The position numbers and the translations under genes are program-made. A stretch of 64,000 bases of DNA, taken from contig NZ_JACCFY010000001.1 of the NCBI RefSeq assembly GCF_013410745.1, positions 744,001 through 808,000 of the forward strand, given 5' to 3'. Below the pieces are notes generated by a model, which had not been told where the DNA came from, made no database searches, and saw only the letters and a program-made list of their open reading frames with translations. The stretch comes from Nesterenkonia xinjiangensis. Lineage in GTDB: Bacteria > Actinomycetota > Actinomycetes > Actinomycetales > Micrococcaceae. This document shows, in pieces, positions 9,505-30,153 of this stretch (position 1 is the stretch's first letter; each line of letters begins with the position of its first letter).

Positions 9505-12339
9505 ATGCATACACCAGGTGACACATCTGCCAGGAGACGCGCACCCCGCGTGCTCGCGGGGATCGCCTCCGCCGGCCTCGCCGCCTCACTGATCATCCCT
9601 ACGCCCGCGACCGCCGCCCCGGCCGAAGCCTCGACCACTCCATCCGTCGAACGTGCCGAGAGCGTCGTCATCAGCGAGGTCTACACCACCGGTGCCGGCC
9701 AGGACGCCGCCTTCGACGAACGGTTCATCGAGCTGCACAACCCCGGAGACGAGCCTGTGGACCTCGAGGGTTGGGCGGTGTCCTACCGCCCGGCATCCCG
9801 CGGCGAGGACGATCTGACGCCCTCGGGCCACGTGACCCTGTCCGGCGCCATCGAACCCGGCGGCCACTACCTGATCGCCAACCCCGGTCTGAGCGCCGGT
9901 GACGGAGAGCCCCTCCCCGAGCCCGACGCCCGGCTCAGCGGCGGCACCGCCATCCGTGACGGCGTCATCTGGCTGGCCTCCACACCTGAGCGCCTGGACC
10001 TCCCTCTCGGAGACGTGCGGGACCATGAGGACGTCGTCGACCTGCTGGGCTACGGCGGAGCGAACACCTCTGAGACCGCGGCCGCGCCGTCGCCGTCAGG
10101 CAGTGCCGACGTGCGCTCCATCGCCCGGGTGGACGAGGCCGTGGACACCGATGACAACTCAGCAGATTTCGCCCTCTCGGAGGCCATCACCCCGACCAAC
10201 AGCGCCGGGGAGCAAGCGGTCCATGAGCCGGAGGAGCCCGAGCGCCAGGAGCCGACGGACCTGGAGATCCATGAGATCCCGCGCAGCCTGGAGCCAGCGG
10301 AGAACCAGCTGCTCGAGCAGCCGGTCACCGTGCGCGGCGTGGTCACGGGCGCCTACCCGACCGGTGGCTTCAACGGGTTCACGCTGCAGACCGAGGGCAC
10401 CGGCGGCGACCTCGACCTGGAGACCCACGCAGCCTCCGACGGCATCTTCGTCTATTCACCCTGGCGGGCCGACGAGGTGGAGATCGGCGACTTCGTGGAG
10501 ATCACCGCAGATGTCACCACCTACTCGGGGCAGGTCCAGCTCTCGCTCTACCCGGGCTCCTCGCAGACCCCGGAGCATGAATTCGCCCTGATCACCGACG
10601 AGCCGCATGAGGCGGTCAAGCCGGCCGTGGTCGAGATCCCTGAGACCGATGCGGAGCGCGAGGCGCTGCTGGGCATGGTCATCGACCCGCAGGGCACCTA
10701 CACGGTCACCGACCACTACACGCTGAACCAGTTCGGGGAGATCGGCATCGTCCTCGGCGAGGAGCCGCTGACCACCCCGACCGCAGCCCACAGACCCGGC
10801 CCGGAGGCCGATGCCCTGGCGGAGGAGAACGCCGAGCGGATCATCTACCTGGACGACGCCGCCACCACCGACTTCTCCCGCTCCTCCGGATGGGACGAGG
10901 AGCTCCCCTATCTCACTGCTGAGGACCCGGTCCGGATCGGGGCGGAGGTCCAGTGGGAGAACACAGTGATCATGGACCGCCGCTTCGATGAGTGGCGCCT
11001 CCAACCCACCGCGCAGCTGACCCCGGACAGCGCCGAGGCGGTCCAGCCGGCTCGCGTCGAGAACACCCGGGAAGGCCGAGAGACCTCGGCCGAGCGTGAT
11101 GCGGACCTGCGCATCGCGGGTTTCAACGTGCTCAACTACTTCGTCACCCTCGGCGAGGACGAGGAGGGCTGCGAGTACCACGCCGACCGTGACGGGAACC
11201 CCACCACCGCTGATTGGTGTGAGGTGCGCGGCGCCTGGTCCACCGAGTCCTTCAAACGCCAGGAGGCGAAGATCGTCGACGCCATCACGACGATGGACGC
11301 CGACGTCGTCGCCCTGCAGGAGATGGAGAACTCGGCCCACTTCACCGACGACGCCGACCGCGATCTTGCCCACGAGCGTCTCGTCGAGGCCCTCAATCAA
11401 GACCTCGGCACCGACACCTGGGCCTACGTGGCCAGCCCGGAGACCGCACCCGCCCCGGAGGACGAGGACGTGATCCGCAACGGGTTCATCTACCGCCCCG
11501 AGGCTGTGGAGCCGGTGGGCGAGTCGGTCATCCTCTTCGACGGGGGCGTGGACGAGATCATGACCCCCGAGTTGGAGGACTTCGACCTGGTCGAGGTCTA
11601 CTCCAACGCCCGCGAGCCGCTGGCCCAGGAGTTCCAGCCAGTGGGCGGTGACGAGCAGGATCGCTTCATCGCCGTCGTCAACCATTTCAAGTCCAAGGGC
11701 TCCGCGCCCGACGGCGGACCGAACGCCGACTCCGGCGACGGACAGGGCGCCTGGAACGCCGACCGGGTGGAGCAGGCACGCGCCCTGGTGGCCTTCGCCG
11801 ACGCGCTGGAGGAGGACACCGGCACCGAGAAGGTCTACCTGATGGGTGACTTCAACTCCTATGAGATGGAGGACCCGCTGCAGGAGTTCCTCGGCGCCGA
11901 CTACACCAACGTCTCGGCGGAGACCGGCCAGCACAGCTACATGTTCGACGGCCAGGTCGGGTCCCTGGACCACCTCTTCGCCTCCGAAGCCGCCGCCGAG
12001 ACGATCTCCCAGGCGGAGATCTGGAACATCAATGCCGTGGAACCGATCGCCCTGGAGTACAGCCGGTACAACGGCAACGCCTCCGACCTGTTCAGCGCGG
12101 ACCTGTGGCGCTCCTCGGACCATGACCCGATCGTGGCCGACCTGCGGTTCGAAGCGACCGAAGCCCCCGGTGACGAGGACGGCTCAGACGAGGACGGCTC
12201 AGACGAGGACGGCGGGACCTGGCCCCCGCGCGGACCGGGGAACAACAACGGCCACGGGCATGGCTCGGGCGAGGACCGTGGCCATGAGCGAGAGGGTCAC
12301 CCCGGCAACGGCCCGGGGAGCACCCCCGGACGACGTTGA
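9505..12339 (+). CDS. large secreted ExeM/NucH-type endonuclease
   Basis: 944-residue extracellular DNase. A signal peptide (ending near TATAAPAEA) is followed by a lamin-tail domain (residues about 50-160: SEVYTTGAGQDAAFDERFIELHNPGD), an OB-fold-like middle (VTVRGVVTGAYPTGGFNGF) and an endonuclease/exonuclease/phosphatase domain from about 530. Catalytic landmarks are FNVLNYF, ALQEMEN, NHFKSKGS, MGDFNSY and SSDHDPIVADL. The C-terminus has a repeated DGSDE stretch and a Gly/His-rich tail but no sorting signal, so it is probably released or held by charge. The 173-bp gap from the nucleotidase contains TAAACT, a possible -10 (9397-9402). Its TGA stop lies inside the left arm of a 72-bp palindrome. 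Confidence 0.92.
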   Translation: MHTPGDTSARRRAPRVLAGIASAGLAASLIIPTPATAAPAEASTTPSVERAESVVISEVYTTGAGQDAAFDERFIELHNPGDEPVDLEGWAVSYRPASRGEDDLTPSGHVTLSGAIEPGGHYLIANPGLSAGDGEPLPEPDARLSGGTAIRDGVIWLASTPERLDLPLGDVRDHEDVVDLLGYGGANTSETAAAPSPSGSADVRSIARVDEAVDTDDNSADFALSEAITPTNSAGEQAVHEPEEPERQEPTDLEIHEIPRSLEPAENQLLEQPVTVRGVVTGAYPTGGFNGFTLQTEGTGGDLDLETHAASDGIFVYSPWRADEVEIGDFVEITADVTTYSGQVQLSLYPGSSQTPEHEFALITDEPHEAVKPAVVEIPETDAEREALLGMVIDPQGTYTVTDHYTLNQFGEIGIVLGEEPLTTPTAAHRPGPEADALAEENAERIIYLDDAATTDFSRSSGWDEELPYLTAEDPVRIGAEVQWENTVIMDRRFDEWRLQPTAQLTPDSAEAVQPARVENTREGRETSAERDADLRIAGFNVLNYFVTLGEDEEGCEYHADRDGNPTTADWCEVRGAWSTESFKRQEAKIVDAITTMDADVVALQEMENSAHFTDDADRDLAHERLVEALNQDLGTDTWAYVASPETAPAPEDEDVIRNGFIYRPEAVEPVGESVILFDGGVDEIMTPELEDFDLVEVYSNAREPLAQEFQPVGGDEQDRFIAVVNHFKSKGSAPDGGPNADSGDGQGAWNADRVEQARALVAFADALEEDTGTEKVYLMGDFNSYEMEDPLQEFLGADYTNVSAETGQHSYMFDGQVGSLDHLFASEAAAETISQAEIWNINAVEPIALEYSRYNGNASDLFSADLWRSSDHDPIVADLRFEATEAPGDEDGSDEDGSDEDGGTWPPRGPGNNNGHGHGSGEDRGHEREGHPGNGPGSTPGRR

Positions 12340-12406
12340 GCTGGTGAGTTTCCGCCGAAACCCGAGCCCTACGGGCCGGATTCGGGCGGAAACTCACCAG
12401 CTCAAC
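12335..12406. repeat. 72-bp perfect palindromic repeat, copy 1
   Basis: Perfect 22-bp inverted arms (left arm begins GTTGAGCTGGTGAGTTTCCG) around a 28-nt centre. Identical arms with the same total length occur at 21081 and 22243. The nuclease stop codon is the TGA of the first arm, and guaB3 ends 16 bp beyond the right arm, so it sits between convergent genes and may terminate both. The centre contains a further small hairpin (GCCC/GGGC). Confidence 0.95.
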
Positions 12407-12422
12407 GGGGCTGAGGACCGCT

Positions 12423-13565
12423 TCAGCGGGACTGCTGGCCCAACGGAGAGACGATCGCGTCCACCCGCTGGAAGGACTTCAGGTCCGAGTAGCCCGTGGC
12501 GGCCATCGCCCGACGCAGCCCGCCCATCAGGTTCGAGGATCCGTCCGTGTGATGGGCAGGCCCCCAGAGGACCTCCTCCAGCGGTGCCACGGTGCCCACC
12601 CGGGTGCGGTGTCCGCGCGGGAAGTCGGGGTGTACGGCCTCCTGGCCCCAGTGCCAGCCGCGACCCGGCGCCTCCTCGGCGCGGGCCAGGGTGGTGCCCA
12701 GCATGACGGCGTCCGCGCCCATGGCCAGGGCCTTGACGATGTCGCCGGATGAGCCCAGGCCGCCGTCAGCGATGACATGGACATACCGGCCCCCGGACTC
12801 GTCCAGGTAGTCCCGACGGGCCGCTGCGACATCGGAGATGGCAGTGGCCATCGGCACGCGGATGCCCATCGCGCGACGAGTGGTGGTGGAGGACCCTCCC
12901 CCGAAGCCGACCAACACGCCGGCGGCGCCTGTGCGCATCAGGTGCAGCGCCGGCGTGTAGCCGGCCGCCCCACCGACGATCACCGGGACGTCGAGCTCAT
13001 AGATGAACTCCTTGAGGTTCAGCGGGTCACCGTTCTGCGCGACATGCTCGGCCGAGACCGTGGTGCCGCGGATGACGAACATGTCCACCCCGGCCTCCAC
13101 CACGGTCTGGTAGAACTCCTGGGTGCGCTGGGGAGTCAGGGAGCCGGAGACCACCACCCCGGCCTGCCGGATCTCAGCCAGCCGTGCCTTGATCAGCTCG
13201 GCCTTGATCGGCTCCGAGTACAGCTGCTGCAGCCGCCGGGTGTTCTCCGGGGAGATCTCATCCTCAGCGAGATGCTCGATCTCCTCCAGCACCGGGGAAG
13301 GGTCCTCATATCGGGTCCACAGGCCCTCGAGGTTGAGCACACCGAGCCCGCCCAGACGCCCCAGCGCGATCGCCGTCTCGGGGGACATCACCGAGTCCAT
13401 CGGCGCCCCGATGACCGGGGTCTTGAACGTGTAGGCATCGATCTGCCAGTCCAGGCTCACGTCCTGGGGGCTGCGAGTCCTGCGGCTCGGAACGACGGCG
13501 ACGTCGTCCAGCGCCCAGGCGCGTCGCCCGCTCTTGGCCAGACCGATGGGGATCTCGTTGCTCAA
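12423..13565 (-). CDS. guaB3: GuaB3-family IMP dehydrogenase-related protein
   Basis: 380-residue TIM-barrel protein of the IMPDH/GMP reductase family without the CBS pair. The N-terminal SNEIPIGLAKSGRRAWALDD is characteristic of the GuaB3 group. GAPMDSVMSPE, the glycine-rich phosphate site (VIADGGLGSSGD) and MLGTTLARAEEAPG are visible. GuaB3 proteins are widespread in actinobacteria and cyanobacteria, where IMP dehydrogenase activity has been reported for a cyanobacterial member. The start is a TTG (13565) with AAGGAG at good spacing. It lies downstream of tenA and guaB on the same strand. Confidence 0.9.
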   Translation of the reverse strand: MSNEIPIGLAKSGRRAWALDDVAVVPSRRTRSPQDVSLDWQIDAYTFKTPVIGAPMDSVMSPETAIALGRLGGLGVLNLEGLWTRYEDPSPVLEEIEHLAEDEISPENTRRLQQLYSEPIKAELIKARLAEIRQAGVVVSGSLTPQRTQEFYQTVVEAGVDMFVIRGTTVSAEHVAQNGDPLNLKEFIYELDVPVIVGGAAGYTPALHLMRTGAAGVLVGFGGGSSTTTRRAMGIRVPMATAISDVAAARRDYLDESGGRYVHVIADGGLGSSGDIVKALAMGADAVMLGTTLARAEEAPGRGWHWGQEAVHPDFPRGHRTRVGTVAPLEEVLWGPAHHTDGSSNLMGGLRRAMAATGYSDLKSFQRVDAIVSPLGQQSR

Positions 13566-13651
13566 CTGGTGCTCCTTGCTCTCGCAGAGGTTGTCAGAAC
13601 GTGGTCAGCGGGACCCCGTGGGCCCCAGGTCTTCTCCGCCGGTGAATCTGC

Positions 13652-14431
13652 TCAGCCGACCGGTGCGGTGCGCCAGGACTCTCGGACGTGGGCCGCCGCC
13701 CAGAAGCGGTGCTCGTAGACGCAGCCCTGCTCGAAGGCCGCCAGCATCCGGGCTCGCAGCGCCCCGTCAGCACCCTCGTAGAGCTGCTCGAAGATGCCGA
13801 TGGCCTCCTCCACCGCCTGGTCGAACTCCGGATCCGAGTAGACCTGCACCCAGCTGCGGTAGGGATGATGCGCCATCGCCTCTCCGATGTCCTCCACCAG
13901 GTGTCGACCCACCTCGGCGTAGACCCAGAAGCAGGGCAGCACCGCCGCGACCGCCACCGCGTGATCGTCGACTGCGGCGGTGGCCACCAGCCAACTGGTG
14001 TACCCCTGGGTGGTCGGCGAGGGGCGCGGTGCGCCGTCCTCATCAGCCATCTCGGAGGCCAGGGCGGAGAACTCCGTCGAGCTCATCAGCTCGGCCTGCA
14101 TGGCCTGCTCCTCGGCAATCGTGTCCGAGGTGGCCCGCGCCCAGAACCGGCGGTGCGCGGCCGACGGAGCCCGAGCCGCCAGCAGGGTCATCGCCTGCCC
14201 GTATCCGGCGAGGTAGGCCGAGTCCTGCAGCAGATAATGCACGAAGGTCTCAGCCGGCAGGGTGCCGGCGGCCAGCTCGGCCAGGAACTCCAGGGACGAG
14301 ATCCGCGCCAACGCCTCACGGGAGTGCCGCCAGGCGGTCAGCCCGTGGTCTCCTGCGCACAGCGCCGGCGAGTCCACGTAGGGCGCCGGTCCGATCCGGT
14401 GCTGGTCTGCCCCGGGCTGGGTGGTGATCAT
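13652..14431 (-). CDS. TenA-family thiaminase II / aminopyrimidine aminohydrolase
   Basis: 259-residue all-helical TenA protein acting in thiamine salvage: it hydrolyses aminopyrimidine breakdown products, or thiamine, to HMP. The catalytic cysteine is in AVLPCFWVYAEVG. The QDSAYLAGYGQAM segment carries the conserved Asp and Tyr, and the C-terminal EQGCVYEHRFW holds the conserved Glu. It begins 11 nt after guaB and ends upstream of guaB3, so a thiamine salvage gene is inserted between the two IMPDH-family genes. I see no TPP riboswitch next to it. Confidence 0.85.
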   Translation of the reverse strand: MITTQPGADQHRIGPAPYVDSPALCAGDHGLTAWRHSREALARISSLEFLAELAAGTLPAETFVHYLLQDSAYLAGYGQAMTLLAARAPSAAHRRFWARATSDTIAEEQAMQAELMSSTEFSALASEMADEDGAPRPSPTTQGYTSWLVATAAVDDHAVAVAAVLPCFWVYAEVGRHLVEDIGEAMAHHPYRSWVQVYSDPEFDQAVEEAIGIFEQLYEGADGALRARMLAAFEQGCVYEHRFWAAAHVRESWRTAPVG

Positions 14432-14442
14432 CAGGCCCGCCG

Positions 14443-16239
<1,797 letters not shown>

Positions 16240-16249
16240 TCACCGCATC

Positions 16250-17443
16250 ATGAGCACCGAAGAGGCACCCACACCCGAAGAGAACCAGAGCTCAGGCCGA
16301 CGCTCCAGCGGCAAGCTGGCCGTGGCGTTCGTCGCCGTGGCGGCACTGGCCGCCACCGCCGGAGGCGTCGTCACCAGCAGCCTCAGCGGCGGCGACGAGG
16401 ACGGCTCCGCCTCCGCGGCCCCGGGGGGATCCGGCGAACAGGCCGCCACCGTGGCGAATGTTCAGGTCACCGGCGAGAACCGCGGCCAGGACGAGGTCCA
16501 CCAGGGCGGCGACGAGGACCTGGAGAACGTCCTGGTCTCCACCGACTGGCTCGCCGATCGCCTCGACGAGGGCGACCTCGCCGAACAGGGCATCGTGCTG
16601 ATCGACGTCTCCGAGGAGCTGCCCACCTCGGAGCTGACTCCCTACTCCGAGGCCCACATCCCCCAGGCCCAGTACGTGAACTGGTCCACCGAGTTCACCC
16701 AGCCCAACACCCGGGAGTTCATCTCCCAGGACGAGTTCACCGAGCTCACCCAGAGCCTGGGCATCGACGACGGCGACACCATCGTCCTCTACGGCGACAG
16801 CAACAACTGGTTCGCCGCCTACGCCGCCTGGGTGTTCAAGCTCTACGGCGCCGAGGACGTCCGGCTGCTCGACGGCGGCCTGCACAAGTGGGAGGCCTAC
16901 GACGAGCGTGAGCTCACCGAGGAGGTCCCCGACGTCGCTGAGGGCACCTGGGAGGCCCAGCCGCAGAACCTCGACATCCGTGCCCTGCAGCCGGAGGTCC
17001 TGGAGATCGCCGACGAGAACGTGGACGGCGAGTCCGACACCGCGCTGGTCGACATCCGCTCCGCCGACGAGCACGACGGCGCCGTCGGCGTGGACCCCGC
17101 GATCTTCGAAGGCGAGTCCACCTCCATCTGGGGCCACATCCCCGGCTCGGTGAACGTCTCCTGGGGTGAGATCGTCGACCCCGAGACCGGCCAGTTCCTG
17201 CCCGCCGACGAGATCCGTGCCATCTACGAGGACGCCGGCGTGGACCTCGACTCCCCGATCGTCACCTACTGCCGCATCGGTGAGCGCGCCTCGCATTCCT
17301 GGTTCGCCCTGAACCAGATCCTCGGCGCCGACGCCCAGGTCTACGACGGCTCCTGGACCGAGTGGGGCAACTCAGTCGGCGTGCCGGTGGCCAACAACAC
17401 CGACGAGCGGGCCGGCCTGTGGGGCAGCGGCAGCGGCTCGTGA
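16250..17443 (+). CDS. membrane-anchored tandem-rhodanese sulfurtransferase
   Basis: 397 residues: a short cytoplasmic N-terminus, one membrane segment (about 22-45, AVAFVAVAALAATAGGVV), a flexible acidic linker and two rhodanese domains. The first domain (about 95-215) has IVLYGDSNNWFAAY in place of a Cys loop, as in the non-catalytic half of thiosulfate sulfurtransferases. The second has the active-site loop CRIGERASHSW with the catalytic Cys near 341. It should transfer sulfane sulfur from thiosulfate outside the membrane. The stop overlaps the GTG of the next gene by 4 nt, coupling it to a thiosulfate-type transporter. An ArsR-like palindrome lies 88 bp upstream. Confidence 0.9.
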   Translation: MSTEEAPTPEENQSSGRRSSGKLAVAFVAVAALAATAGGVVTSSLSGGDEDGSASAAPGGSGEQAATVANVQVTGENRGQDEVHQGGDEDLENVLVSTDWLADRLDEGDLAEQGIVLIDVSEELPTSELTPYSEAHIPQAQYVNWSTEFTQPNTREFISQDEFTELTQSLGIDDGDTIVLYGDSNNWFAAYAAWVFKLYGAEDVRLLDGGLHKWEAYDERELTEEVPDVAEGTWEAQPQNLDIRALQPEVLEIADENVDGESDTALVDIRSADEHDGAVGVDPAIFEGESTSIWGHIPGSVNVSWGEIVDPETGQFLPADEIRAIYEDAGVDLDSPIVTYCRIGERASHSWFALNQILGADAQVYDGSWTEWGNSVGVPVANNTDERAGLWGSGSGS

Positions 17444-18741
17444 GCACCACCGCAGAATCCACGACGACGGAGCCCGCCCGCCGCACCGGCGGCCCGGGCT
17501 CCGTCTCGGTCCCCGCCGACCGTCCGCTGGGCTGGACCCGGGCGGACTCGGCGCGCACCGGCGTCGCACTGGGGGTGGCGGCCCTGCTGCTGGGCCTGGC
17601 CGCCTGGCTGGCCGTCACCGACGGCGAAGGCCTCGGCGGGTCGAACGCCTCCTTCGCCCTGCTGATCGGCGCCGGACTGGGCATCCTGTTCGAGCGCGGC
17701 CGGTACTGCTTCTTCTGCGTGTTCCGGGACTTCTTCGAGAAGGGCAGCTCCCGGGGCCTGTACGCCGTGCTGGTCTCCATCGCGGTGGGGATGATCGGCT
17801 ACGCCGTCGTCTTCTCCCTGCGGGTGTCCAACCCCACCGGCGGCACACTCCCCTCGGATGCGCACATCGCCCCGGTCTCGCTGGCGCTGGTGATCGCCGG
17901 GCTGGCCTTCGGGCTGGGCATGGTCATCTCCGGGGGATGCATCGCGGGGCATCTCTACCGCCTGCCCGAGGGGCATCTTCGCTCGATCCCGGCGCTGGCC
18001 GGTGTGGTGGTCGGCTTTGCCGCGGGCTTCCTCTCCTGGGACTTCATGTACTCCGGGTTCATCGCCGGAGCTCCAGTGCCCTGGCTGCCGGCCGGCGGCG
18101 GGTACACGGTGGCCATCCTGCTGCAGCTGGGCGTGCTGGCCGGCCTCGGGCTCTGGCTGCTGCGCTGGAACCCACCCGTGCAGGGACGCGGGGATCGCGT
18201 GGTCGACGGGACCGAGATCCGCAGGCTGCTCTTCTTCAAGCGCTGGCCCGCCCTGGCCACCGGGGCCGGCGTCGGGGTCCTGGCGGTGCTGGCCTACTAC
18301 AAGGACCAGCCGCTGGGGGTGACAAGCCAGATCTCCTCGCTGACGCGCACGAGCATGGACTCCGCGGGGCTGCTGCCGAACTTCATGCCTGGCCTGGACG
18401 AGCGGCTGGCCGGCTGCGTGGCGCTGGTGGTGCACACCGTGACCACCAACGGCTGGCTGATACTGGGGATCGTGCTGGCCTCCCTGGCGGCGGCGCTGCC
18501 CGGTCGCCGAGTCCGTGTGGAGCGGCTCACCGGGTGGAACTCCCTCACCGCGGCGATCGGCGGGGTGCTGCTGGGATGGGGTTCGATGATCGGGCTGGGC
18601 TGCACCATCGGAGTGCTGCTCTCCGGCACCCAGGCCATGGCGCTCTCCGGCTGGGTCTTCGGCGTGGCGGTCTTCGTCGCCGCCGGCGTCGGCTTCCGAC
18701 TGGGCCTGCATCGCCGGGCCAGCCCCGGCGTCTATCGCTGA
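17440..18741 (+). CDS. YeeE/YedE-family (TsuA-type) thiosulfate/sulfur transporter
   Basis: About 433 residues with at least ten hydrophobic segments, matching the double-length YeeE/YedE fold. The three Cys motifs typical of thiosulfate uptake proteins are present: GRYCFFCVFRD (near 89-92), SGGCIAGHLYRLPEG (near 167) and GLGCTIGVLLSG (near 387). In TsuA of Spirochaeta thermophila and E. coli YeeE such cysteines relay thiosulfate through the pore. The GTG at 17440 overlaps the stop of the rhodanese gene (GTGA); earlier starts would lie inside that gene. The operon likely takes up thiosulfate and passes its sulfur on. Confidence 0.88.
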   Translation: MSTTAESTTTEPARRTGGPGSVSVPADRPLGWTRADSARTGVALGVAALLLGLAAWLAVTDGEGLGGSNASFALLIGAGLGILFERGRYCFFCVFRDFFEKGSSRGLYAVLVSIAVGMIGYAVVFSLRVSNPTGGTLPSDAHIAPVSLALVIAGLAFGLGMVISGGCIAGHLYRLPEGHLRSIPALAGVVVGFAAGFLSWDFMYSGFIAGAPVPWLPAGGGYTVAILLQLGVLAGLGLWLLRWNPPVQGRGDRVVDGTEIRRLLFFKRWPALATGAGVGVLAVLAYYKDQPLGVTSQISSLTRTSMDSAGLLPNFMPGLDERLAGCVALVVHTVTTNGWLILGIVLASLAAALPGRRVRVERLTGWNSLTAAIGGVLLGWGSMIGLGCTIGVLLSGTQAMALSGWVFGVAVFVAAGVGFRLGLHRRASPGVYR

Positions 18742-18787
18742 GCGGAGCACTCCGCATCACCGGAATGGACCGACTCATAGGGCGGTC

Positions 18788-18814
18788 TTAGCACTCTGCT
18801 TGACCGAGTGCTAA
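18788..18814. promoter_or_regulatory. CIRCE element 1 (HrcA operator)
   Basis: TTAGCACTC-N9-GAGTGCTAA, a perfect match to the CIRCE consensus. It overlaps the -35 box of the groES promoter, consistent with heat-shock repression by HrcA. hrcA is not in this window. Confidence 0.97.
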
Positions 18815-18828
18815 GGCCGTCCTAAAGT
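18800..18828 (+). promoter_or_regulatory. groES-groEL promoter
   Basis: TTGACC (18800-18805), a 17-nt spacer and TAAAGT (18823-18828) make a good vegetative promoter embedded between the two CIRCE elements. Transcription would begin near 18835, giving a leader of about 205 nt before groES. Confidence 0.75.
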
Positions 18829-18833
18829 TTGTG

Positions 18834-18860
18834 TTGGCACTCGACGTCATCGAGTGCTGA
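18834..18860. promoter_or_regulatory. CIRCE element 2 (imperfect HrcA operator)
   Basis: TTGGCACTC-N9-GAGTGCTGA, with two departures from the consensus, placed just after the -10 box near the transcription start. A strong and a weaker CIRCE in tandem around one promoter is a known actinobacterial arrangement. Confidence 0.9.
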
Positions 18861-19041
18861 TTCGGCGCCGGTGTCACCGGTGTCGGAGCCTGACGGGGCG
18901 CCATCCGGCACCGCGACGACGGTTGGTCACTCCCAAGGCGCGCAACAAACCCGGCCTGCGGCACGACGTCGGCGTCACACGACGTACAGCCCTGGCCTGA
19001 GCACAGACCCGATTCGACTTCACGCAAAGGAGAGCACTGAC

Positions 19042-19338
19042 GTGTCAGTCTCTATCAAGCCCCTCGAGGATCGCATTGTTGTCCGCCCCCTGGAAGCTGA
19101 GCAGACCACCGCTTCCGGCCTCGTGATCCCGGACACCGCCAAGGAGAAGCCCCAGGAGGGCGAGGTCGTGGCAGTGGGCCCCGGCCGCTTCGACGACAAG
19201 GGCAACCGCGTCCCGGTCGACGTCTCTGAAGGCGACGTCGTCATCTACTCCAAGTTCGGCGGCACTGAGGTCAAGGTCGGCGGCGACGAGTTCCTCGTCC
19301 TGAACGCCCGCGACGTCCTGGCTGTCGTCGAGAAGTGA
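19042..19338 (+). CDS. groES: co-chaperonin GroES
   Basis: 98-residue Hsp10, the lid of the GroEL folding chamber. [20 protein letters not shown], the mobile loop [19 protein letters not shown] and the C-terminal [15 protein letters not shown] are all canonical. The GTG at 19042 follows AAAGGAG and gives the normal family length; longer frames upstream run through the CIRCE region and are not credible. groEL follows 59 nt later in the same operon. Confidence 0.98.
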
Positions 19339-19376
19339 TCGCGGACCTCCGCACACTTCTCGAGACCCGCATCTGA

Positions 19377-20999
<1,623 letters not shown>

Positions 21000-21018
21000 T
21001 TGCTCTGATCCGTCTCTG

Positions 21019-21060
21019 AGAGGGGCCCTGGCACGTCATCTGACGAGCCAGGGCCCCTCT
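21019..21060 (+). terminator. groEL operon terminator
   Basis: Perfect 14-bp stem (AGAGGGGCCCTGGC and its complement) with a 14-nt loop, 19 bp after the groEL stop and followed by TCTGTCCCC. The T tract is short, as is common in high-GC genomes. Confidence 0.85.
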
Positions 21061-21080
21061 TCTGTCCCCTCCCACTCCCA

Positions 21081-21152
21081 GTTGAGCTGGTGAGTTTCCG
21101 CCCGAAAGACGCGCTCTGGGGCCGTATTCAGGCGGAAACTCACCAGCTCAAC
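21081..21152. repeat. 72-bp perfect palindromic repeat, copy 2
   Basis: Same 22-bp arms and 28-nt centre length as the copies at 12335 and 22243. The right arm, read on the minus strand, supplies the TGA stop of the AbiEi/DUF559-type gene, just as copy 1 supplies the nuclease stop. With copy 3 it brackets that gene exactly. Confidence 0.95.
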
Positions 21153-22207
21153 TGAGCAGGAGGACGCTCACTCGGGCCACGACGCCGATGAAGTCCTCTC
21201 TGAAGTCCACGCGATTCGCCCGCACGACCGTCCACCCGTCCCGGCGGAACGCCCCGTCGCGCCACTCGTCGCTGGCCTGCTGCTCGGCCTCGAAGTGATG
21301 GGCTCCGTCATACTGGACCGCCACCTTCCGACGGCGGTACGCCAGGTCGGTCACGGGGCTGACGGGATCATCCGGGTCAAGTCTCGCCTGCAGCTCCGGC
21401 TCCGGATGGCCGGCCTCGACGAGTCGCAGACGAAGAAGGGTCTCCGGCGGGGAGTCCGCCCCGACGCGCACCCTCTCGAGAGCCTGCCGTGCGGCGACGA
21501 TCCCCCGGGTGTGGCCGTGCCGCGACAGACACTCCTCCAGCAGCTCACGCGTGCTCCAGGGGTGTTCCCCTGCCTTCGAAGACTGCTCGAGGCTCACGGA
21601 CCAACGCGTCGCCCAGCACCACGAGCTCGTCCGGTCGAAGGTGCGGCATGAGGTCGATGAACACACGCTCCGGTGAAGCGAGCCGCAGGCCCTCCTGCTC
21701 CAGCACCTCCCCCATGGTGTTCTTGATCGGACCGTGCTGACGCACTGCTCCGAGCCCGGCCACAGTCCTGCCCCTGAACCGGCCGCTGACATGGATCGCT
21801 GAATCCCCCGCGAAACGCGGAGGGAGGGGCAGGCCGTGCACCCGGGCGGCAGTCGCGTGGCTTAACCAGAGGCCCGGCGCACGAGAGCAGAGTGCCTGCA
21901 GCAGGGCGAGATCGATCGTCTCGGACGGCACCCCCTCCACATGCGGCCCTTCACCGTGCGGCCCTTCACCGTGCGGCCCACCCACACCCGCGGCGGGTGC
22001 GACGTCGGCGTCGCCCGGCACAGGACGATGGCGGTAGATGCCTCGGACGACCCGCTCGATGTCACGGGCCCGGAGCCGCTTCTCCGGCACTCCCGCGGCC
22101 AGGGCCTGTTGGCGGGTGAAGATGCGGCCGTAGAGCGACGGCGGGAGCGGGTCAGGTCGACGCATGAGGGCCAGCCTGCCCGATAGGCTTCCGCAGCACA
22201 GCCCCAC
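21148..22207 (-). pseudogene. AbiEi-antitoxin-domain/DUF559-type nuclease-fold protein, frameshifted
   Basis: A single family protein of about 330 residues is split over two frames. The upstream part (from the ATG at 22207, or 22165 at MRRPDPLPP) holds the AbiEi-like winged helix (SLYGRIFTRQQALAAGVPEKRLRARD, seen in two pieces) and the LWLSHATAARVHGLPLP domain, and ends at 21545. The downstream part resumes one frame over with HPWSTRELLEECL and continues into a DUF559/Vsr-like domain: ETLLRLRLVEAGHPEPELQ, VTDLAYRRRKVAVQYDGAHH and RDGWTVVRANR. The shift lies near 21550-21580, next to a GGGG run in an AGGGGAACACCCC stretch. The gene is common in Micrococcales, but its function is unproven. A 15-bp in-frame tandem repeat lies in the linker. 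Confidence 0.8.
21941..21980. repeat. 15-bp tandem repeat inside the AbiEi-type gene
   Basis: Units of (A/G)TGCGGCCCTTCACC at 21941 and 21956 plus a partial third unit from 21971. In the minus-strand frame they encode repeated GPHGE. A multiple of three keeps the frame, so this is not the cause of the frameshift. Confidence 0.8.
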
Positions 22208-22242
22208 GAGGCGCTTCTGTGGATAACCTTCCCCGGAGACGA

Positions 22243-22314
22243 GTTGAGCTGGTGAGTTTCCGCCTCAATCAGCCGTAGAACGACCTCTTTCAGGCGGAAA
22301 CTCACCAGCTCAAC
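22243..22314. repeat. 72-bp perfect palindromic repeat, copy 3
   Basis: Third copy with identical arms and a different 28-nt centre. It lies between the stop of the sodium symporter gene (22336) and the start of the frameshifted AbiEi-type gene, so it would be read as hairpin RNA by transcripts leaving the symporter gene. Confidence 0.95.
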
Positions 22315-30112: not shown

Positions 30113-30153
30113 AAGGCCTCGTGCGGCACCGCAGAGGTGCCGCACGAGGCCTT
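30113..30153 (-). terminator. strong hairpin after the gatCAB operon
   Basis: Perfect 18-bp arms (AAGGCCTCGTGCGGCACC and complement) with a 5-nt loop, about 60 bp downstream of the last gene of the gat unit and upstream of AGCS 2. On the minus strand it is followed by TTGTCG. It probably terminates gat transcription. Confidence 0.8.

Follow-up and report, generated by a model that had tools for sequence, protein, structure and literature searches.

Introduction

Which kind of element places palindromes with the same arms between the genes of an actinobacterium, and which enzyme acts on them? This question is raised by a 64,000-nucleotide stretch of the Nesterenkonia xinjiangensis genome (the window; positions 744001-808000 of a single 3.57-Mb contig), which holds three such palindromes of 72 bp. 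A preliminary description had attributed them to a dispersed hairpin-type family, distinct from ordinary terminators, and had proposed a search for a repetitive extragenic palindrome (REP)-associated tyrosine transposase (RAYT) or another single-strand transposase. Our analysis recovers the family and points to a different enzyme. The palindromes appear to form matching boundaries of a small gene encoding a putative DNA-binding Vsr-like nuclease, and the layout of a gene between matching palindromes recurs in many actinobacteria. We assign a probability of roughly 0.6 to the reading that the palindromes are cognate sites of a nuclease element, made up of a palindrome, an AbiEi/Vsr-like DUF559 gene, a second palindrome and dispersed solo copies, which resembles a REPtron in organisation and uses an unrelated enzyme.

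Palindromes bracket a gene for a putative nuclease

Palindromes 2 and 3 (21081..21152 and 22243..22314) have the same arms and bracket an AbiEi-like/DUF559 (Vsr-like) gene on the minus strand at 21148..22207. Palindrome 2 lies on the 3′ side of the gene and gives its TGA stop, and palindrome 3 lies on the 5′ side. The gene is frameshifted and consists of two overlapping open reading frames (ORFs) on that strand: an N-terminal ORF at 21545-22207, which matched no Pfam family, and an ORF for the DUF559 part at 21148-21792, which gave PF04480 at E 1.7e-4 (over the cut-off) and MTES_1575 at E 1.5e-4 (below the cut-off). Proteins of this group join an AbiEi-like half, with AbiEi-like DNA-binding domains, to a Vsr/I-Bth0305I-like domain that has a Vsr/EDxHD-like catalytic fold and invariant acidic residues. 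Five genes of this type were found in the genome (in the window and at 541, 1016, 1671 and 1910 kb) by a search limited to five scored candidates in each genome, so their total is at least five; every one is paired with palindromes, the sequences of which differ.

Gene and palindromes co-occur across Actinomycetota

Genes and matched palindromes co-occur far above chance. Each gene was scored for a palindrome on either side and for resemblance between the two, and control genes were put through the same procedure. A PF04480 search of 12 genomes returned 29 hits, 28 of which were tested (the window's own gene was left out); 20 of these reached a score of 18, versus 0 of 170 control genes, with a top control score of 13. 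Among the eight hits under 18 (L090, L096, L103, L095, L085, L098, L100 and L108), we take the first three, on their motifs, to resemble true Vsr, L095 is an ORF of different build, and L085, L098 and L100 have a palindrome seen on one side. In addition, PF04480 overlooks members, as the DUF559 genes of L076, L077, L079 and L136 came from inspection of neighbourhoods.

The association recurs in further surveys. Among named relatives in GTDB contigs (the best 80 of 255), 37 of the 80 reach 18 under strict settings, and under relaxed settings 45 reach 16 versus 0 of 111 same-locus controls, five of which score 14 or 15. Across a sample of the Actinomycetota, the DUF559 alignment matches 123 of 396 species at E 1e-10, and 20 of the 30 best-match loci reach 16 versus 0 of 21 controls; the N. 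xinjiangensis gene at 541 kb is counted among the 30, leaving 19 of 29 newly examined loci. Another 19 loci hand-picked from the phylum list, including the 1016-kb gene of N. xinjiangensis, yielded 15 passes, without fresh controls. Pairs were also present in five of six records from a plasmid collection, two Tsukamurella records among them, and the sole phage record examined had no palindrome pair. In one Tsukamurella plasmid record (L355; NZ_LR134464.1), purB and a phosphoribosylaminoimidazolesuccinocarboxamide synthase gene flank the DUF559 gene, and the record may be a chromosomal piece.

The same layout is seen in a genus labelled g40. In G069 and G096 two copies begin 1128 bp apart with a DUF559 relative between them, G119 has the same arrangement at 1166 bp, and in G138 the gene is present with a palindrome found on one side only. 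In all four genomes the gene lies between what we take to be an scpB- or scpA-like gene and a pseudouridine synthase gene.

Palindromes differ from gene to gene

Different genes have different palindromes, and solo copies carry the arms of the gene-flanking copies. Across 25 pairs, 20 of which were picked for passing 18, the left and right palindromes of one gene score 18-67 against each other, versus a cross-gene median of 8; only 7 of 300 cross-gene comparisons reach 18, each within one genus. Consistently, in the 37 loci of the named survey, picked in the same way, the median is 35 within genes and 7 between genes, with 19 of 1332 between-gene scores reaching 18.

This diversity also bears on integron attC sites, whose core motif is GTTRRRY ... 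RYYYAAC. The ends of the N. xinjiangensis family fit this core, but other families with the same gene layout start GCCGA, GATTCG or CGTCGA, and the candidate was rejected; integrases were not searched for.

Further dispersed families, with elements about 57-80 bp long (ATCGACTGCTCC... is one example), occur in g40 genomes (L113, L116, L129, L131, L148, L149, L150 and L143), and one solo, at L113:87 with the sequence TTGCGTGCTCAGTAG..., is similar to the palindromes around another DUF559 gene (L091, L092 and L104). At L078 (G096:C1:63443 and 63729), two near-identical palindromes with similar flanks lie at a distance of 286 bp, and a third palindrome, different in sequence, stands between them.

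The palindrome family of N. xinjiangensis

All three window palindromes are 72 bp overall, at the places given in the preliminary description, and their arms account for six matches in the window versus none in 100 shuffles. The claim of 22-bp arms around 28-nt spacers holds for palindromes 1 and 2; palindrome 3 has perfect arms of 23 bp, and its spacer is therefore strictly 26 nt. Palindrome 1 (12335..12406) is a solo with arms of 22 bp. On one side, an LTD/Exo_endo_phos gene (9505-12339, plus strand) has its stop codon inside the arm; the neighbour on the other side is an IMPDH-family gene (12423-13565, minus strand). An arm does supply the TGA of a neighbouring gene in two cases, at 12337-12339 (+) and 21148-21150 (-).

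The expected further copies were found: the genome holds 15, of which 13 are solo and all but one, of 73 bp, are 72 bp long. Two extra model matches of 70 bp have different arms. Identity between copies is 91.5% in the arms and 34% in the 20-nt centres, so that the centres differ as claimed. Constraint extends inward of the arm, where one free base is followed by a mostly conserved GAA/TTC. The centres themselves are not entirely free: their mean pair score is 9.18 versus a shuffled mean of 7.68 (standard deviation 0.18). Given this residual similarity, the copies look like drifted descendants of one ancestor. When 16 copies were aligned (15 from this genome and one from the sister genome G008, of the same genus), 5 of 25 pairs have both-sided changes, a number reached by 9 of 500 shuffles, and the covariation score is 0.112 versus 0.037 in shuffled alignments, with 0 of 500 as high. 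Within the taxonomic family, 16 of the 245 genomes had a match to the covariance model R1 at E 0.01, N. xinjiangensis included, several by single weak hits. An exact-pattern scan of GTDB contigs, a set to which the genome possibly does not belong, gave no match.

The paired changes might suggest that the palindromes are RNA hairpins at gene ends, serving as bidirectional terminators or 3′ stabilisers and perhaps trimmed by the nuclease. Predicted stems are strong (-37 to -61 kcal/mol in 14 copies from this genome), and the median distance from a solo to a stop codon is 22.5 nt (70 distances). However, a T-tract (≥5 T in 9 nt) stands on 1 of 124 flanking sides, and 62 solos (one per fetched locus) occupy convergent, tandem and divergent gaps in numbers of 21, 28 and 13, near the same-locus background of 38, 82 and 27. 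Intrinsic terminators were rejected on T-tracts and gene orientation, in agreement with the preliminary description. Moreover, 13 of these solos lie between divergent genes, no Rfam family matched in the window at gathering scores, and groEL already has a separate terminator-like hairpin (20 bp with a 2-nt loop, at 21019-21060, directly after the gene and adjoining palindrome 2). A terminator role would also leave the matched pairs around one gene family unexplained, and we regard an RNA function as quite improbable.

The same layout invites a reading in terms of regulation, in which the palindromes are operators through which the AbiEi-like protein controls its own gene and a dispersed gene set, and nothing moves. 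AbiEi antitoxins are described as repressing their own promoters via 23-bp inverted repeats; the median distance from the end of the upstream palindrome to the point where the tblastn match begins is 81 bp (37 named loci), and constant arm spacing with a variable centre fits an operator of two half-sites. We nevertheless consider operators unlikely, given that the second palindrome stands behind the gene, that 21 of the 62 solos sit in convergent gaps and 13 in divergent gaps, that a sister species either lacks the solos or has another family in their place, and that the protein has invariant acidic residues in a domain of nuclease type.

The predicted RAYT-type enzyme was not recovered. The Y1 transposase family (PF01797, E 0.001) is present in 0 of 12 genomes (N. 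xinjiangensis and 11 related), whereas 5 of 14 named genomes used as controls gave a match; the search did not extend to DDE transposases. The likely cognate enzyme is instead the AbiEi-like and Vsr-like (DUF559) protein encoded between palindromes 2 and 3. For the N. xinjiangensis family, the GTAG or CGTC tag and 20-40-bp palindrome of REP/RAYT systems are not seen, its elements being 72 bp long with no conserved base or tag found in their 10-bp flanks. Ends of a longer insertion sequence (IS) are likewise not supported, since the arms in this genome occur as pairs of 72-73 bp. A classical REP/RAYT family, or a family of IS-derived miniature inverted-repeat transposable elements, with the DUF559 gene as a passenger would account for 15 dispersed palindromes with drifted centres, but beyond the missing transposase, unconserved flanks and arm pairing, the gene is bracketed too frequently for a passenger, making this reading scarcely credible.

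The window has further inverted repeats. A 19-bp repeat with a 9-nt spacer at 18778-18824 (TTAGCACTC-N9-GAGTGCTAA) precedes a small ORF and groEL and resembles a CIRCE/HrcA operator. A perfect 18-bp repeat with a 5-nt loop at 30113-30153 does not belong to the family.

Changes between related species

Comparison with G008 and within g40 shows in-place inversion of the gene segment and, at some sites, of the palindrome centre. The DUF559 gene has opposite orientation in N. xinjiangensis and G008 at all three shared loci (groEL; L207/L100; L209/L085), and the G119 gene is likewise reversed relative to G069, G096 and G138. Of 12 orthologous sets compared in g40 (11 of them of solos), three have a centre inverted in place between flanks that are 93-99% identical (L145 versus L112; L122 and L146 versus L114; L126 versus L118), and others have paired changes in both arms.

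The protein itself diverges quickly. L097 and L085 are each other's best match, with 60% identity, and L100 matches L109 best (59% over 225 residues), although by score L109 is closer to L088 of its own genome. The DUF559 pair at the groEL locus, compared as DNA only, is 64% identical over a part, versus 94% for groEL DNA between the two genomes. A symporter and DUF559 gene within 1.5 kb downstream of groEL were found only in G008 among 29 loci of the genus; in G007 a symporter match lies about 3 kb from groEL. The speed of this divergence (about 60% identity at two shared loci against 94% for groEL), together with matches of PADLOC AbiEi models to 14 of 15 group members, would suit a defence or toxin-antitoxin-like nuclease with palindromes that insulate its gene or serve as marks of self DNA. 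This account leaves solo palindromes distant from the gene unexplained, and we judge it very improbable.

The solos differ between the two species as well. G008 has its own 66-bp palindrome family, which brackets its own groEL-locus gene; exact matches to its arms number 29 in G008, one in G000 and none in G024, G028 or G002. At gaps in G008 that correspond to N. xinjiangensis solos, palindromes are absent or of another family: among 12 traced solos, three gaps run on uninterrupted by any full element (L037, L041 and L057), five hold the G008 family instead (L028, L031, L032, L034 and L035), and one (L039) contains 2.4 kb of other sequence in which there are both a copy of the own type and an arm of the G008 type. 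Three (L033, L038 and L040) were left without assignment, and a thirteenth solo, L036, has an own-type orthologue in G008. At the L037 junction nine bases, GTTGAGCTG, corresponding to the arm start, remain in G008; they may be a remnant or chance. The probability that gaps would be shared with G008 by chance is about 4e-10, a rough guide only, given its assumed inputs (20 sites, 3000 gaps, 6 of 15 shared). The preliminary description had expected arms that vary freely among relatives if these were simple terminators; arms do differ by species, but they follow the species' own gene version in G008 and g40.

In G008, one arm beside a DUF559 gene (L201:3232-3317) holds a run of about 20 T, and its partner arm has no run. 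Elsewhere (L388; G008:C118:4078-4584), two G008-type arm sites flank a small open frame that is not DUF559 and that we take to be cutA.

Discussion

Our comparisons argue for palindromes that serve as cognate sites of a DUF559 nuclease element, and from the association of gene and palindromes we infer binding, cutting and movement. Two AbiEi-like domains could bind the pair of 22-26-bp arms, each arm being one of two inverted half-sites, and the Vsr-like domain may then nick or cut the palindrome, either as duplex at its centre or as an extruded hairpin. Repair of the break would copy, invert, replace or delete palindromes, at times carrying the gene. If repair moves palindromes in this way, solo copies would be insertions or footprints. 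More broadly, we propose, with slightly less than even confidence, a class of selfish elements across Actinomycetota in which an AbiEi-Vsr fusion nuclease recognises and cuts its own long palindrome. Repair of the breaks would spread, flip and replace palindromes at scattered intergenic positions, whether or not the gene goes with them, and the nuclease and most of its sites would thereby change together between species.

Several findings weigh against the nuclease-element reading. The gene that matches the 72-bp family in N. xinjiangensis is frameshifted, a matched pair is absent in 35 of the 80 named relatives, and a solo family of G002 lacks a matching gene among its PF04480 hits. In addition, own-type copies persist in G008, and an empty-site analysis of seven loci gave no clean insertion site, divergence being too high to read target duplication.

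These observations give a DNA context to DUF559/MTES_1575, a large family named for its unknown function. They suggest a second, HUH-independent solution of the REP problem, namely the spread and within-genome likeness of short palindromes, and the many natural protein-site pairs make a recognition code testable. Searches of an open-licence library gave no Vsr-type/DUF559 or AbiEi-type protein with cognate dispersed palindromes; subscription journals were mostly outside this scope, and a description elsewhere is possible.

The element works like a REPtron, yet lacks the enzyme that defines one. REP palindromes and RAYT enzymes are described as co-evolved, and REPtrons share with our element dispersed palindromes and an enzyme gene flanked by the same palindromes (PMC8266576, PMC3733652), as is seen for window copies 2 and 3 and in G069, G096 and G119. 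Here, however, the enzyme is AbiEi-like and Vsr-like and not an HUH Y1 transposase, and the palindromes measure about 50-80 bp versus 20-40 bp, without a conserved adjoining tag in the N. xinjiangensis family. TIRtrons are Y1-transposase genes between long terminal inverted repeats that also form dispersed families (PMC3733652); the likeness lies in a gene between long repeats that are also found dispersed, but our element has a complete palindrome at each end, and again its enzyme differs from a Y1 transposase. Compared with Vsr-like/EDxHD homing endonucleases such as I-Bth0305I, the gene described here is free-standing and intergenic, its product has an AbiEi-like N-terminal half, and matched palindromes lie on both sides. 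Finally, unlike the AbiEi antitoxins of type IV toxin-antitoxin systems, the AbiEi-like half is fused to a nuclease-type domain, and its candidate sites both flank the gene and are dispersed through the genome.
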